From: Deltaproteobacteria bacterium
Lineage (GTDB): Bacteria > Myxococcota_A > Polyangia > Nannocystales > Nannocystaceae
Length of the DNA: 46,427 nucleotides
Direction: 5' to 3'
NCBI GenBank assembly: GCA_022601155.1
Contig: JAHZJA010000255.1
Coordinates: forward strand, 1 to 46,427
Shown: positions 36,634 through 46,427 of the stretch, one piece after another
How the letters are laid out: every line of letters begins with the position of its first letter
How positions within the stretch are numbered: position 1 is the stretch's first letter
Position numbers and translations under genes: made by a program
Notes under the pieces: model-generated
Told to the model about the DNA's origin: nothing
Databases searched by the model: none
Seen by the model: only the letters and a program-made list of their open reading frames with translations

Positions 36634-39591
<2,958 letters not shown>

Positions 39592-39838
39592 CCCAGGTCG
39601 AGGGTACGACTGCGACCGGCAAAGGGCGAGGCGCTGCGTCTCGTGTTCCAGGTCGGAACACGGGCGGCCGCGCCGCTCGGCAACAACCGCAGCGTCTGGT
39701 CCTCGTGCCGTGCGGGGGTGGTCTCCGTCGACAAGCCGGGGCTGGTTGATCGTGTCGTGCGCGAGGGCAGCCTCATCGTTGCCGCCCGTGCCGTACGGCT
39801 GTGCCAGTCCATCCCCTGCGTTCGCGTGGTTTCGCGGC

Positions 39839-40762
39839 TCACTCCTGGGGGGAGGCAGAGCGCTGGTCTGTGGCACGCAGCGTGAGCACGTCGATCGCAG
39901 GGGGAACCCCAAACCGCACCGGCAGGATGCTGGTGCCCACGCCCACGCCCACGTACAGGTGTCGCCCCTCTTCCACGACATGGCCGGCTGCGTACCGCTG
40001 TCCGTACCGCGACGGCACCACGGGAGGTCCGAGCACCGGTACACACACCTGGCCGCCATGGGTGTGCCCGGCGAGGGTCAGGTCGACGCGGGGCGGGACG
40101 TCGGGGAACACGTCGGGGTTGTGGGTCAGCAGCAAGGCGGGGGCGTCTTCGGGGACGCGCGCGGTGGCCAGGGGAACGTCGGCGGAGCGCGTCATCAGGT
40201 CTCCCACCCCGGCCACCCACACCGTCGTCCCCGAGACCTCGATGGTGGTCGAGTCGTCCTCGAGCACCACGATGCCCACCTCGCGGAGGTCGGCCGTGAT
40301 CTGATCTCCGTCGTGCCACCAATCGTGGTTGCCGAGCACTGCGATCACACCGTGGGGCGCCTGCAGCCGACCCAGCTGTGCGGCGGTGACCTTGGGCTCC
40401 ACGAAGTCACCGCCGACGACACCTTGGATCACCAGGTCACCCAAGATCACCACCAGGTCGGGCTTCGCTGCGTTGGCCTCGTCGATGACCTCCGCGAGCT
40501 TGTCGACATCGATGTGCGGGGCGCCGACATGGAGGTCGGTGAGCACGACCACCCGCATGCCATCGAGCGTGCCAGGCCAGTCGGGCAGCGTCAGCTCGAC
40601 CTGGCGCACTACCAGCCGATCGGGTTCGATGAACAAGGCCCAAACCGCCATGGCAAGACCCACGGCCAGGGTGCCGCCCAGCACCCATCGCCAGCGACGA
40701 CGGCCTCGGCTGCTCTTCAAGGGGCGCCCTCGCAGGTGGCGGGGCTGAGCGGTCGAGGACAT
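39839..40762 (-). CDS. Membrane-anchored metallophosphoesterase (YkuE-like)
   Basis: This 307-residue protein has a basic N-terminus (RGRPLKSSRGRRRWRW) and one membrane helix (~27-45) placing a metallophosphoesterase domain outside or at the membrane. Metal-binding motifs are in order: DLH (76-78, in VVVLTDLHVG), GDL (108-110), GNHD (144-147), LLTHNPD and AGHTHGGQ. Family members bind two metals and cleave phosphate esters, including lipid-linked ones. It lies 247 bases upstream of the kinase on the same strand, so co-transcription is possible. Confidence 0.9.
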   Translation of the reverse strand: MSSTAQPRHLRGRPLKSSRGRRRWRWVLGGTLAVGLAMAVWALFIEPDRLVVRQVELTLPDWPGTLDGMRVVVLTDLHVGAPHIDVDKLAEVIDEANAAKPDLVVILGDLVIQGVVGGDFVEPKVTAAQLGRLQAPHGVIAVLGNHDWWHDGDQITADLREVGIVVLEDDSTTIEVSGTTVWVAGVGDLMTRSADVPLATARVPEDAPALLLTHNPDVFPDVPPRVDLTLAGHTHGGQVCVPVLGPPVVPSRYGQRYAAGHVVEEGRHLYVGVGVGTSILPVRFGVPPAIDVLTLRATDQRSASPQE

Positions 40763-40804
40763 TGGCGGGCGCCCTCGCAGGGTATGACGCCGCTGGTGCC
40801 GTGG

Positions 40805-41491
40805 CTACGGGGTGACCCGGTGTCCAGGGAGCAGCGCCTCGAGGTAGCCGTGCAGCGCGGTCCAGCGCCGCCGGTCCACCGCATGATCGACTCGGTTGCG
40901 CCGCCACCAAGACGCGAACCGGGCCCAGGGCAGCGCCGCCGCGGCCCTGAGCACTGCGACCCCGATCCAGACCGAGGCCACCGCCATCATCCCGGCCCCC
41001 AGCAGCCCGATGCCGTCGATGGCCCAGGACCAGCTGGGGTTGCGGGTGACCGCCCACCAACCTCGACCCGCCGAGACGAGAACCGTGTAGGCCATCCACA
41101 GGGCGAGCGTGGCGAGGGCCAGGCCCACGATGGGCGGACGAGGCCCGGCCACGGGTGTCTCGAGGCGAGCGCGGCCGTCGACGCGCATTCGAAGCGACGA
41201 AGGATCGGCGCTGCGATACGAGCCCGCGGTCGCGAACAGCTGCACACTGACCTGCCCCACGAAGCCGTGACGCGAGACTCGGTAGCGGCGGCCGCGAATG
41301 ATGCCCTGGAGCCTGTCTTCATCCACCCGGTAGCCGGCCTTGGTGGGGAACAGTTCCTGGCAGGCCAGGGCGATGGCGTCGGCCATGCGTCCCACCTCGT
41401 CCTCGACCTCCGAGGCCTGCTGGAGAGGCGCGGCATACGTCCATCGAAAGGGCTCCTCGGCGGAAACCAATGTGGCGGGTGGGGTGAGCAT
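40805..41491 (-). CDS. Small membrane protein of unknown function
   Basis: From ATG 41491 this protein is about 228 residues: a signal-like start (MLTPPATLVSA), an outside domain (~12-120) and two membrane segments (~120-140 and ~160-185), ending in a basic, Trp-rich tail. A TTG four codons earlier would give a better signal peptide. I recognise no domain. The arrangement (signal, small outer domain, two helices) fits a membrane sensor or accessory subunit. Confidence 0.68.
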   Translation of the reverse strand: MLTPPATLVSAEEPFRWTYAAPLQQASEVEDEVGRMADAIALACQELFPTKAGYRVDEDRLQGIIRGRRYRVSRHGFVGQVSVQLFATAGSYRSADPSSLRMRVDGRARLETPVAGPRPPIVGLALATLALWMAYTVLVSAGRGWWAVTRNPSWSWAIDGIGLLGAGMMAVASVWIGVAVLRAAAALPWARFASWWRRNRVDHAVDRRRWTALHGYLEALLPGHRVTP

Positions 41492-41663
41492 CGCCAGCGG
41501 CAAGAGTACGACCGGTACGCGGTCGTGTCGTGGTCGAGTTGGTCGGGGGTTGGTGCTGTGGCTCCAGGGAGTCGAGCACTGGACGGTGACGGGTGGGTAC
41601 GGGCTTCGGCAACCGCCGCGCCGCGCCTTCGATTCCCGTCGAGGGAGGGCGCGACGGTAGCGC

Positions 41664-43307
41664 CTACGGGTGTGCGTAGGGCACGTCGCGGGACGAGGGG
41701 CGAGGGTTCTGATCGAGGGTGAAGTGCCACCACTCGCCGTCATGGGGCCTGAAGCCGTGGCGCTTCATGGCTCGGCGCAGCAGCAGACGGTGTGCCAGTG
41801 CCACTCCGGTGGCGGCACGGGTGCGGCTCGATGTGGTGAAGTGGTCCCAGCCCGTGCCCATCTCTAGCGGCTCGCCACTGTGTCGATCGACCACGGTGAG
41901 GTCGACGGTCGTGCCGCGTGCGTGGCTGGAGTGACGCGCGATGTAGTGGTGGTCGAGCAGCCAGACCTGATCGGTGTCGTGGGCCCACTGCACCATTGCC
42001 GCCGAGGCTCGCCGGGGCCGATAGGCGTCGTAGACCAGCACGCTCAGCCCTTCGGCTTCGAGATCAGCCTGGACCTGGGCCAGGGCCTCGGCAGCGGTAG
42101 GGGTCATCCATGCGCCCGGCGTCTCGTAGCCGGGCAGCGGAGCTCCCGTGAAATTATCGGAAGACGCGTAGCGGATGTCGAAGCACGCGCTGGGAATTGC
42201 ATCGCGAAGGTCGACCAGGCCCCGGGGCGGAGGTGATGGAGGATCGGCGAGCGCGGACACGGCCGGGGTGGGGCAGCGGGGTCCGAGGGAGGGTGGTACG
42301 ACAGGCTCGGGCGGTGGTGTCGCGATAGCCTCGGGCTGCGGCGTCGCGATGGCCTCGGGCTCGGGTTGAGACCGCGGCACGAGCTCGGTACCCACGTCGG
42401 CGGGGCATGGCTCGATCTGGTCCCAGAGCCACTGAAGTCCGCGGTCCAGCGCAGGCTGGTGGCGCGAGTCCACCCGCGAGCCATGCGTGATGTCGAGCCA
42501 CGCGACCTGCCGCGGCCCGCGATAGTGGTTGGCCACGCGGGCACCATTGCGGGGCCTGACCAGGGTGTCCCGGGTGCCCAGTACGAACAGCGCAGGGACG
42601 TGCTTGATGCGACGCGCATTGGCAACGCTTCGTGTCGCTCGCGGAAGGCTGAGGGTGACCGGGCCTGCAGCCAGCCACAGATTCCACCATCCAAACCGAC
42701 CCATCACCAGCCCGGGGATGTCGGGGCCGCGATCGAGGACCAGGGCCGCGGGGGGAACCTCTGGGGTGGAGGCCGCAACGTGTAGGGCGGCGGTGGTGCC
42801 CATGCTGATGCCGTACACGACGATGGGGGCGCCCTGGGCTTGCTCGGCCAGGTGGTCGTAGGCGTCGAGTGCCGCCGCGCCCAGCCTGCGCAACGTGGCG
42901 GGCCCGGGCTTGCCGCTGGGGTGATCGCTGCTGCCGAACCCTGGATAGTTGACGGCCAGCACGCCCACGCCCCGTCGCCCGTGAGCGTCGGGGGCGAGGG
43001 CCCGCGGGGATTGAAACCAAGTCCGAAGGACGTTGGGGACCGACTGGAGCTCGCGCTCGGCTCGACCTGCGTTGCCCGTGAACGCCAGGACGTACAGTCG
43101 AGGGCGGGCACCCTCGGTGCCGTGCTCCTGGTAGAAGGCCTCGACCGTGCGACGGCGCAGCGGAAATCGGGTGCCGGGGATGTACACCCGCGTGGCCCCC
43201 GTCTCGATGGGATCGTGGGACGGGTGCAAGAACAGGCGATTGCTGCAGCCGCCCAGACAGCTCGCGAGCGCACTGACGCAGATCATCACGGACGCGCGGG
43301 TGGGCAT
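41664..43307 (-). CDS. Lipoprotein fusing an alpha/beta-hydrolase to a VanX-type D-Ala-D-Ala dipeptidase
   Basis: From ATG 43307 this 547-residue protein has a signal peptide and a lipobox at LGGC (C21). Residues ~35-300 form an alpha/beta-hydrolase: nucleophile S168 in GISMG, acid D247 (TRDTLV), base H275 (ITHG). A Pro/Glu linker (~305-345) joins an M15 peptidase domain (~365-547) whose VanX motifs are R430 (YDAYRP), H462 and D469 in SSHARGTTVD, and E525 with H528 in EWWHFT. VanX enzymes are usually free ~200-residue zinc peptidases that cleave D-Ala-D-Ala. A membrane-anchored fusion with a second hydrolase could recycle or edit cell-wall peptides. I know of no well-studied fusion of this kind. 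Confidence 0.87.
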   Translation of the reverse strand: MPTRASVMICVSALASCLGGCSNRLFLHPSHDPIETGATRVYIPGTRFPLRRRTVEAFYQEHGTEGARPRLYVLAFTGNAGRAERELQSVPNVLRTWFQSPRALAPDAHGRRGVGVLAVNYPGFGSSDHPSGKPGPATLRRLGAAALDAYDHLAEQAQGAPIVVYGISMGTTAALHVAASTPEVPPAALVLDRGPDIPGLVMGRFGWWNLWLAAGPVTLSLPRATRSVANARRIKHVPALFVLGTRDTLVRPRNGARVANHYRGPRQVAWLDITHGSRVDSRHQPALDRGLQWLWDQIEPCPADVGTELVPRSQPEPEAIATPQPEAIATPPPEPVVPPSLGPRCPTPAVSALADPPSPPPRGLVDLRDAIPSACFDIRYASSDNFTGAPLPGYETPGAWMTPTAAEALAQVQADLEAEGLSVLVYDAYRPRRASAAMVQWAHDTDQVWLLDHHYIARHSSHARGTTVDLTVVDRHSGEPLEMGTGWDHFTTSSRTRAATGVALAHRLLLRRAMKRHGFRPHDGEWWHFTLDQNPRPSSRDVPYAHP

Positions 43308-43387
43308 GTCGGCGTGTGGACGCCCGCGGGGGTACGAAGTTCCCACGCCGCCCATCCTGCCAAATTTCGGGTACCCACAACGTCAAC

Positions 43388-43416
43388 GGGCCACGACGCG
43401 AGCAGCATCGTGGCCC
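43388..43416 (-). terminator. Hairpin terminator after the large lipoprotein gene
   Basis: GGGCCACGA (43388-43396) pairs perfectly with TCGTGGCCC (43408-43416) across an 11-base loop, 32 bases beyond the stop of the lipoprotein gene at 43448 (minus strand). The following run on the minus strand (GTTGACGTTGTGG) is only mildly T-rich. Confidence 0.55.
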
Positions 43417-43447
43417 ATGGAAGACCCTGGAGGTCTTGGCGTGGCGC

Positions 43448-45199
43448 TCAGTCGCGCCAGCAGTCTTGCGCGGTGCTGACCGACTGGAACTGGACCCAGT
43501 CGAAGCTGGCCCGCAGGTCAGGGCTGCTCGAGTAGGCACCCGCCATCGGTCCGACGTTGATCGTGTCGGGCAGGTCGACGGAGTCGAGGTTGTCGATCAT
43601 GGTCCAGGGGTCGTCCGGCAGGCGGATGAACGTGTTGATCACGTTGTCCACGCGGCAGATACGAAGCTCCGCCAGGTCGTTGTCCCACAGGATGTTGCCC
43701 GCGTAGTTGGTGTTGCCGTCCTGGGTGACCTGCGAGACGGTGACCACCGAGCCCTCGGCGGCGTGGCCGATGCCTGCGTGGTAGGTGCTGGGACCGCCGG
43801 ACGGGTCGCGGAGCAACAGACCGCCGAAGCGGAAGAAGTCGCCGCCGGCCGTGGTGCCGCCCGCGAGGTCGGTGACCTCGAGGTAGGTGGTCATCGAGAA
43901 GTTGCCGCTGACCGTACGGCTGATGTGCACCGCCTCTTGATCATTGTACCAGGCGGTGTTGCCCTCGGGCTCGAGCTCGAGCGCACCCTCTTCGACCTCC
44001 ACGAACGCTAGCTCCGGGTTGCGAACATCCCAACCGGTCAGGTCACCGTCGATGAGAAACTCGTCGGTGAGTGCGTCGAGGGGATCTTCGTTGGGCTCCA
44101 TGCCTTCGCCACAGGCGACGGCGTGGTAGACGACGTGGATGTCTCCGCTGAGGCCGGTGACGGTGTTGGTGGTCTGCGCGGCGTCGTCGAGGTCGGCCAC
44201 GATCGGGTAGTCCGACGGGGTGACGGTGAACTCGCCGTCGCCGTTGGTGGCCAGCGGGGCGCCGCCGACGTACAGGTGCTCCTCGTCGAGGGTCACATCG
44301 CCTACGCGATTGAAGATGATCGTCGCGGAGGAGCCGTCGTAGGAGACGGCAAGGTCACCTACGTGGGAGCCGTCGGTGGGGTTGCACCCGCCGACCGCGG
44401 CGTAGACCGGAAACGAGGTGGAGGTGTTGGGAGAGACCCTGTTGGACCAACCCCAGTCGGCGAAACCGTCGTCGGTGCCGTCGCCGTCGAAGTCGGCGCC
44501 CAGGAAGCAGGTGCGGTCGATGCCGGCCGCGTAGGCGCTCTCGCACTGCTCGGTGACGGGGTTGTCGTCACAGCTCATCTCCATGGTGAAGAAGCGACCA
44601 TGGCGACGGCGCCAGCCCAAGCGCTGACCATCACCCCAGGCGCCGCGGTAGCGGTACCAGCCGTTGTTCCGCTGGCGACGCACACGGGCGTGGGCCACGA
44701 AGTGCGCCATCGAGGGCGGGCAGACCTCGTCGGTCCCGTCGAGGCCGAACGTGCACAGGGGGACGTCGAAGGTATGGGTCGTCGCGCCGGTGATGTCACC
44801 GCTATCGAACGGCAGCAGGCTCTTGCGGATCCGTCCGCGTCGGTTGGTGGGGATGTCTTCGAGGCCGAGGCCGGTGGCCATGCGCGCCTGCACCAGCTCC
44901 CACGGTCCGGTGGTCTGGTAGGTGACGTGCATGACGCCCGTGGCTCCCTCGCCACACTGGGCGGAGGTGTCGACGGTGTTGTCGACGGTCCCACACACGC
45001 TGCCCACGTTGGCACGGCGGCCAGAGACGAGGTCGACGCAGGTGTCGCCACTGAGGACGACGATGCGATCGTTGTCGAAGCCGTCGGCGTCGAAATCGTC
45101 GCCGTTGTCAGAGCCACAGGCACTGACGGCCAGCGGCAGTACGCACGCGGCAACCAAGGCGAGACGACGACGAGAAGGAACCATCCTGGTGTGCTTCAT
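43448..45199 (-). CDS. Large lipoprotein with C-terminal carbohydrate-module-like domain
   Basis: This 583-residue protein has a basic signal (MKHTRMVPSRRRLALVAACVLPLAVSAC) and a lipobox at VSAC (C28); an AGGAA ribosome-binding site lies about 10 bases before ATG 45199. After an acidic spacer come a Cys-rich region (~50-250) and beta-rich segments. The last ~190 residues (~390-583: LTGWDVRNPELAFVEVEEGALELEP, FSMTTYLEVTDL, GPMAGAYSSSPDLRASFDWVQFQSV) resemble concanavalin A-like/DUF1349 jelly-roll modules. It is probably a surface protein that binds or processes polysaccharide; no catalytic residues are identified. Confidence 0.83.
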   Translation of the reverse strand: MKHTRMVPSRRRLALVAACVLPLAVSACGSDNGDDFDADGFDNDRIVVLSGDTCVDLVSGRRANVGSVCGTVDNTVDTSAQCGEGATGVMHVTYQTTGPWELVQARMATGLGLEDIPTNRRGRIRKSLLPFDSGDITGATTHTFDVPLCTFGLDGTDEVCPPSMAHFVAHARVRRQRNNGWYRYRGAWGDGQRLGWRRRHGRFFTMEMSCDDNPVTEQCESAYAAGIDRTCFLGADFDGDGTDDGFADWGWSNRVSPNTSTSFPVYAAVGGCNPTDGSHVGDLAVSYDGSSATIIFNRVGDVTLDEEHLYVGGAPLATNGDGEFTVTPSDYPIVADLDDAAQTTNTVTGLSGDIHVVYHAVACGEGMEPNEDPLDALTDEFLIDGDLTGWDVRNPELAFVEVEEGALELEPEGNTAWYNDQEAVHISRTVSGNFSMTTYLEVTDLAGGTTAGGDFFRFGGLLLRDPSGGPSTYHAGIGHAAEGSVVTVSQVTQDGNTNYAGNILWDNDLAELRICRVDNVINTFIRLPDDPWTMIDNLDSVDLPDTINVGPMAGAYSSSPDLRASFDWVQFQSVSTAQDCWRD

Positions 45200-45512
45200 T
45201 CGAGCTATTCCTGACCCCGGTTGGTGCCCGGGTGATGTTCAATTTCGTACAGCGACGGTTCGTGCGGGGCTGCGCTCGGTGTCGTGCGCAAACGCCCTCG
45301 TCGATATACAGAACTCTTTGAATTACATCGGATTTTCCCCGATCCGATGCACGCGATACTCGGCGTGTGAGGGCGTCATCTACGCAACGGAGCCCACATT
45401 CATTTCATGCCGACATCGAGGGAACTGTAAGGGATCCGGTGGTACTCGGCAACCGAATTTCAGGCATCTGACACGGGCTGAAATCACGTGTTTTGGATCG
45501 AACCACGGGGGG
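45200..45512. promoter_or_regulatory. 313-base upstream region of the large lipoprotein gene
   Basis: This stretch is more AT-rich than the genes. It holds an inverted repeat CATCGGA (45326-45332) / TCCGATG (45343-45349), which could be an operator for the lipoprotein gene at 45199. On the minus strand, TGTATAT a little closer to that gene could be a -10 element. No gene is evident here. Confidence 0.4.
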
Positions 45513-45528
45513 CTACACCCCCCGTGGT
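45502..45528. terminator. Perfect hairpin spanning the helicase stop codon
   Basis: ACCACGGGGGG (45502-45512) pairs with CCCCCCGTGGT (45518-45528) across the loop CTACA. The stop codon of the helicase gene (minus strand, 45513-45515) lies in the loop. There is no T-tract on either side, so termination strength is uncertain; mRNA 3'-end protection is the alternative. Confidence 0.55.
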
Positions 45529-46427
45529 GCTTCGAGGGTCAGGCCTCGAACGTCGCTGCGAAAGTCCGCCTGTCGCAACGCGTCGGCGTGCTTCGATCCA
45601 CGCGCGGGTTCACCATCGACCGTTTCCACCCGCAGCGTTCGACCACGGCGACGCGCTGCGACGATGCCAAGCGCTTGCGCGGCGAGCGAGAACCGCTCGG
45701 GATCATCAGCGGCGACGAAGGTGAGCAATCGCTTGCCACCCTTGTCGACGAACAACACAGCCTGTCCGCCGACCAACACCACGACGGCCCCGGCCACACG
45801 GCGCGGATTCGAACTGGTGCGTGAAGGCGCTCGCACTGGCCACGGCAGTAGCCACCCGTAGGGGTTTGCGGGATCAACCGCAGACAAGACCACCACGTCG
45901 TCGTCTTCGGGATCGCGCAGCGCTCGGATGCGATCGACCGCGCCCGGTGATGCGAACTGCGCTCCGCCGAGCTCGTCGACGAAGTAGCCGCGCCGCACCT
46001 TGCCCGCTTCTTCCATCGCCTTGAGCACGCGGTAGACCGCCGAGAATCCGCCGGGCAGATCTTCGAGGCCCGCGGCTTCACGTGTCACCAGCCCGTGTCG
46101 CTCGAGCAACGTGACCGCACGAGCATGGGCGCGGGTGGTGGTATCGACAGACGGAGGCAAGAGGTCTCGAACCCTCGACCACCGTCCACCGCCGCCGGTC
46201 GATGTCATCCGCCCGCGACGGGTGCCGCGGCGAGCGGGAGCAGGGCGTCCGTGGGTCCGCAAGGCCGCAAAAGTGTCGTTGGTGACCAGGCCCCACCACA
46301 CCAGGTCCCACAGCGCTTCGTCGAGCTCCTGGTTGCTCACCCGCTGTCCGCAGGCGGTCTGTAGCTCGACCATGAAGCACGCGCCGCGGGCTTCGAGATG
46401 GCTCATGATCGTCTCGTGGACGGCGTC
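45513..46427 (-). CDS. lhr: C-terminal part of large helicase-related protein Lhr
   Basis: The gene runs off the right edge; 304 C-terminal residues are visible before the TAG at 45513-45515. The sequence matches the C-terminal winged-helix and accessory region of Lhr-type DEAD/H helicases: ELDEALWDLVWWGLVTNDTF, GRWSRVRDLLPP, VTREAAGLEDLPGGFSAVYRVLKAMEEAGKVRRGYFVDELGG and QFASPGAVDRIRALRD. Lhr is a 3'-to-5' ATP-dependent helicase that unwinds RNA:DNA hybrids and responds to DNA damage; the ATPase motifs would lie upstream, outside the window. The gene is on the minus strand, and its stop is inside a perfect hairpin. Confidence 0.9.
   Translation of the reverse strand, partial: DAVHETIMSHLEARGACFMVELQTACGQRVSNQELDEALWDLVWWGLVTNDTFAALRTHGRPAPARRGTRRGRMTSTGGGGRWSRVRDLLPPSVDTTTRAHARAVTLLERHGLVTREAAGLEDLPGGFSAVYRVLKAMEEAGKVRRGYFVDELGGAQFASPGAVDRIRALRDPEDDDVVVLSAVDPANPYGWLLPWPVRAPSRTSSNPRRVAGAVVVLVGGQAVLFVDKGGKRLLTFVAADDPERFSLAAQALGIVAARRRGRTLRVETVDGEPARGSKHADALRQADFRSDVRGLTLEAPRGV

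Follow-up and report, generated by a model that had tools for sequence, protein, structure and literature searches.

DdpX and PcgL are D-Ala-D-Ala dipeptidases related to VanX, and the paper that reported the discovery of PcgL is cited under a title with the word 'periplasmic'. According to PMC6403190, VanX-type enzymes are known for the dipeptide and VanY for the pentapeptide. PMC7933661 names PcgL of Salmonella as a D-Ala-D-Ala dipeptidase, and a published source describes LpqR (Rv0838) of M. tuberculosis as a lipoprotein VanX homologue. Here we analyzed a window of 46,427 nucleotides, which is one entire contig of an assembly of a member of the Nannocystaceae (10.8 Mb, 1522 contigs, 72% complete), in which a sequence-only reading had noted a gene for an alpha/beta-hydrolase fused to a VanX-type dipeptidase. 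The open frame encodes 547 aa followed by a stop and has no internal stops, and a position check of each residue (C21 in LGGC, S168 in GISMG, D247, H275, R430, S460, H462, D469, D488, E525, and H528) confirmed the coordinates and catalytic residues of that reading throughout; an alternative in-frame ATG at 43355 would give a fusion protein of 563 aa. Based on the Pfam matches, these residues and the lipobox, the product appears, as had been claimed, to be one lipoprotein-like protein chain whose two catalytic domains both look intact (Table 1). It is probably a real and private fusion of two known enzyme kinds, and what is modestly surprising is the partner, together with the recurrence of other partners on VanX-type domains elsewhere.

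Table 1. Features of the fusion gene and adjacent frames in the window.
Feature	Coordinates	Strand	Basis or remark
Frame without Pfam match	40805-41743
Fusion gene, 547 aa	41664..43307	-	Single open frame; whole-length match in own genome only
VanX-type M15D domain, approx. residues 361-547 (H462, D469, E525, H528, R430, S460, D488)	41664..42227	-	Pfam Peptidase_M15; AF2; Foldseek
Pro-rich linker, approx. residues 301-360	42228..42407	-	Sequence; GC3; similar linkers before VanX in relatives
Alpha/beta-hydrolase domain, approx. residues 38-300 (triad S168-D247-H275, motif GWWNLW)	42408..43196	-	Pfam Hydrolase_4/Abhydrolase_1; AF2; Foldseek
Signal peptide, residues 1-21, with lipobox LGGC and predicted lipidated Cys C21	43245..43307	-	Sequence; lipobox scan
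Lipoprotein-like frame, 583 aa, no Pfam match	43448-45199	-	Next upstream, same strand as fusion gene
Frame with Lhr winged-helix domain (Lhr piece)	45513-46406	-	Contig end

The C-terminal half of the fusion protein was matched by Peptidase_M15 at residues 363-535 (Pfam; E 4.5e-32, 111.9 bits, gathering score 27), and in a phmmer search of the PDB at E 0.001 the sole structure matched was that of VanX (1r44; residues 367-539, E 1.9e-25). The zinc motifs SxHxxGxxxD and ExxH are present as SSHARGTTVD and EWWH, and in an alignment of 40 rows the columns of D469, E525, and H528 were invariant and that of H462 nearly so. The AF2 model of this half (mean pLDDT 94.2) retrieved 1r44 in Foldseek with E 7.5e-20 and a TM score of 0.85, the next match having an E value of 2.6e-5, and 1r44 was far ahead of the VanY, VanXY, and endolysin relatives. 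The zinc ligands H116, D123, and H184 of VanX align with H462, D469, and H528, and its E181 and R71 align with E525 and R430; an insertion of about 13 residues in 1r44 is absent from the fusion protein. The VanX half is 53-55% identical to proteins of Deltaproteobacteria and Myxococcales MAGs, and the same sequences recur among genomes of the same family (loci L009/L029 and L012/L030), from which the window probably belongs to a myxobacterial family. In a tree of 45 VanX domains the window domain adjoined six standalone proteins from one genus of that family (support 85/84), the branch joining it to these neighbors lying below the tool's own support mark. The domain scored 118.5 bits against the NCBIfam VanX equivalog cut-off of 320, and Pfam gave no vanH- or vanA-type neighbors in the five frames at 36637-46406, where the further neighbors of the fusion gene are a metallophosphoesterase and a Ser/Thr kinase with TPR; on these two grounds glycopeptide resistance was rejected as a role.

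The N-terminal half was matched by Hydrolase_4 at residues 111-190 (Pfam; E 5.5e-9, 36.1 bits, threshold 27), and its nucleophile elbow GISMG (residues 166-170) follows the GxSxG pattern of S33-like alpha/beta-hydrolases. In the AF2 model, built from 12 sequences (mean pLDDT 85.3), D247 and H275 come after predicted strands 239-244 and 266-271; the two halves were modeled separately, and the models say nothing on their relative arrangement. All 12 rows of the alignment, that of the fusion protein among them, have S168 and D247, and most hydrolase relatives share the GWWNLW motif, with the nucleophile Ser and the Asp kept in all. Foldseek searches with this model returned many alpha/beta-hydrolases, including acetyl xylan esterases and monoglyceride lipases, none of them close. 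A PDB search with a profile of the hydrolase family found lipase- and thioesterase-like chains. Ranked first were hydrolase domains that bear the name RTX toxin (E 1.1e-11 and 8e-11), followed by an MHETase and monoacylglycerol lipases. We treat this as a lead to possible lipid or ester substrates and nothing beyond; toxicity is not claimed. Around the catalytic His the sequence reads HGSR, HN being the usual form among relatives, and this would suit a protein in which one half is dead or regulatory, the hydrolase merely anchoring or sensing while the VanX part works, or the reverse. The partners differ in the other fusions described below, so the partner may matter little, but the triad and the zinc ligands are both retained and we consider a dead or regulatory half distinctly unlikely.

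We searched for the fusion among related genomes in three overlapping sets. The whole protein had matches in 27 of 59 genomes, own genome included, and both halves were spanned only in the latter. A search of 317 class genomes with the hydrolase half alone gave matches in 10, again counting the own genome (at most seven candidates scored per genome), and in the DNA fetched around each match in the nine others the VanX part was absent beside the hydrolase. Across 282 genomes of the phylum (at most five candidates scored per genome) the whole protein matched in 36, of which only the own genome spans both halves. One genome (G037) carries both halves on separate contigs. The standalone GWWNLW-motif hydrolases (loci L019, L031, L032, and L034-L040), several of them lipoprotein-like, are 36-43% identical to the fusion half in the alignment; the hydrolase is standalone at both Planctomycetota loci, L031 and L032, where its lipobox GC aligns with that of the fusion protein. 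At L031, in a Phycisphaerales MAG, GWWNLW-motif hydrolases stand as a tandem pair (2094-2984 and 2921-3805, plus strand), the first of them lipoprotein-like. It had been asked beforehand whether homologues are always split, and every examined homologue of either half was indeed split; to the extent examined, the fusion is thus confined to this lineage. Conservation among relatives was rejected, with no second fused copy in any of the three sets, and given that no second genome has the same fusion, conservation cannot vouch for it. Literature searches for such fusions showed none among the papers listed, which is not proof of absence.

The absence of a fused homologue, the fragmented assembly, and a same-genus genome (G001, 94% complete) in which neither half was found at the thresholds used would all fit with an assembler having joined two separate genes in frame, which the sequence-only reading had itself raised as a danger. 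In opposition to this, the halves lie on the same strand and in frame, with no stop and with a plausible linker that resembles those preceding VanX in relatives; GC3 is 0.827 in the hydrolase, 0.75 in the linker, and 0.802 in the VanX part; the codon usage of the two halves is alike (cosine 0.911); and the junction is set about 4 kb back from the contig end. Furthermore, apart from itself the junction DNA matched just one 57-base stretch in its own genome, at 77% identity, leaving no long repeat that the assembler could have bridged. Judged from the assembled sequence alone, the check therefore came out against misassembly, to which we assign a very small probability, and the even codon usage and non-repeated junction favor a real lineage-specific fusion.

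The N-terminus MPTRASVMICVSALASCLGGC has a charged n-region, a hydrophobic core, and a lipobox Cys, and is predicted by a simple lipobox scan to be a lipoprotein-type signal. With the same kind of scan, a lipobox (6/16) or an export-like start (5/16) was seen in 11 of the family's 16 VanX-like proteins, and likewise in 28 of the 51 from the phylum sample (13/51 and 15/51), while shuffled leads used as a control gave 4/1020 with a lipobox and 49/1020 export-like; these counts supersede those of an earlier lipobox scan (17/49) and of a stricter one that proved too strict (3/16 in the family, 7/51 in the phylum sample). The statement that VanX is normally cytosolic accordingly fails for this lineage. 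Of the proposed membrane anchoring, the lipoprotein signal stands, but the anchoring itself is no surprise, since exported relatives are common and PcgL and LpqR are published.

M15 domains were surveyed in the phylum and found at 53 places in 52 of 377 genomes; 52 were read, a 121-aa frame (G347) being left out, and nine of the 52 frames, the window's included, were scanned with Pfam, the others being judged by reading. A second enzyme shared the frame with M15 in four of the 52, and the four partners are unrelated. Apart from the window hydrolase, these were a GDPD (E 1.5e-32) at L061 (442-2121, plus strand, 560 aa), a type I phosphodiesterase (PF01663; E 4.1e-24) at L071 (1468-2925, minus strand, 486 aa), and a lipoprotein-like methyltransferase (E 1.1e-8) at L050 (649-2181, plus strand, 511 aa), each joined to a VanX-type M15. 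For a methyltransferase, export would by itself be unusual. As in the window, M15 is C-terminal of the other enzyme in all three, which occupy three separate places in the 45-domain tree, where the well supported branches force at least two changes. Each fusion was single among the genomes searched (GDPD 1/57, phosphodiesterase 1/90, methyltransferase 1/21), elsewhere in which their halves matched separately. M15 was present in 71 of 317 genomes of the class, and among the M15 frames read there, the window held the only second-enzyme fusion; ten further long frames of the class showed no second enzyme by reading. Long M15 frames were rejected as further fusions, many of the long leads being of low complexity without a domain. 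VanX-type domains thus occasionally acquire unrelated partners, which could reflect function or a mere tolerance of exported proteins for fusion. It is a doubtful extension of these data that in Myxococcota the exported VanX-type dipeptidase serves repeatedly as a C-terminal module, fused on independent occasions to enzymes of envelope debris (a lipase-like hydrolase, a GDPD, a phosphodiesterase, and in one case a methyltransferase), in a modular dual-function family that recovers D-Ala along with lipid or phosphate when envelopes, possibly those of prey, are lysed. With different fusions recurring on the VanX-type domain, comparison of the partners would offer a test of what exported VanX does in predators or scavengers.

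For the window itself we favor, with moderate confidence, a lineage-specific fusion in which a VanX-like relative of the exported dipeptidases of the same family had its signal segment replaced by a complete lipoprotein alpha/beta-hydrolase, from a family of patchy distribution that is otherwise standalone, the tethered but independent enzymes salvaging envelope debris. In this proposal the protein would be lipidated at C21 and located in the envelope, and the Pro-rich linker would let both enzymes act independently; the VanX part would cleave D-Ala-D-Ala in its free form, or other short D,D-dipeptides like it, the hydrolase part would cut an ester, perhaps of acyl or lipid type, and together they would salvage envelope breakdown products, own or from lysed neighbors, with the intact wall not breached. 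The sequence-only reading had instead suggested a two-step attack on prey or own wall, in which the hydrolase would first open an ester of the wall or of lipid, leaving the peptide to be trimmed by the VanX domain. Both domains do look active and anchored, VanX relatives are mostly exported, and the GDPD and phosphodiesterase partners in two other fusions are enzymes of envelope polymers and lipids, all of which would agree with such an attack. However, Pfam gave no wall-binding domain in the fusion protein, for which reason a wall-lytic enzyme was rejected, and none of the surrounding genes (kinase, metallophosphoesterase, Lhr piece, and frames without a Pfam match) is one of wall lysis. Because VanX is known as a dipeptidase and it is VanY that is active on the pentapeptide (PMC6403190), the attack is without direct support; VanX proper is known to act on dipeptide in free form, and none of the findings indicates that its substrate would come from the hydrolase. 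We therefore hold the two-step attack to be highly improbable, and it appears likelier that the two hydrolases, tethered but independent, salvage debris of envelopes. If real and active, the fusion ties a D,D-dipeptidase to a second envelope hydrolase and raises the role of exported VanX-type enzymes outside glycopeptide resistance.

In comparison with known systems, the fusion protein shares its C-terminal fold with VanX (M15D; 1r44) and differs from it by the hydrolase partner and the predicted export. The standalone GWWNLW-motif hydrolases, unlike the fusion protein, are without a VanX domain. An exported VanX-type domain is likewise found in PcgL and LpqR, which are likened here by their published description and not by sequence. 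The exported VanX-like proteins of Myxococcota have one enzyme domain after the signal and linker and no hydrolase, but they share export with the fusion protein; VanX export is thus already ordinary in this lineage, and the new element is the N-terminal hydrolase.
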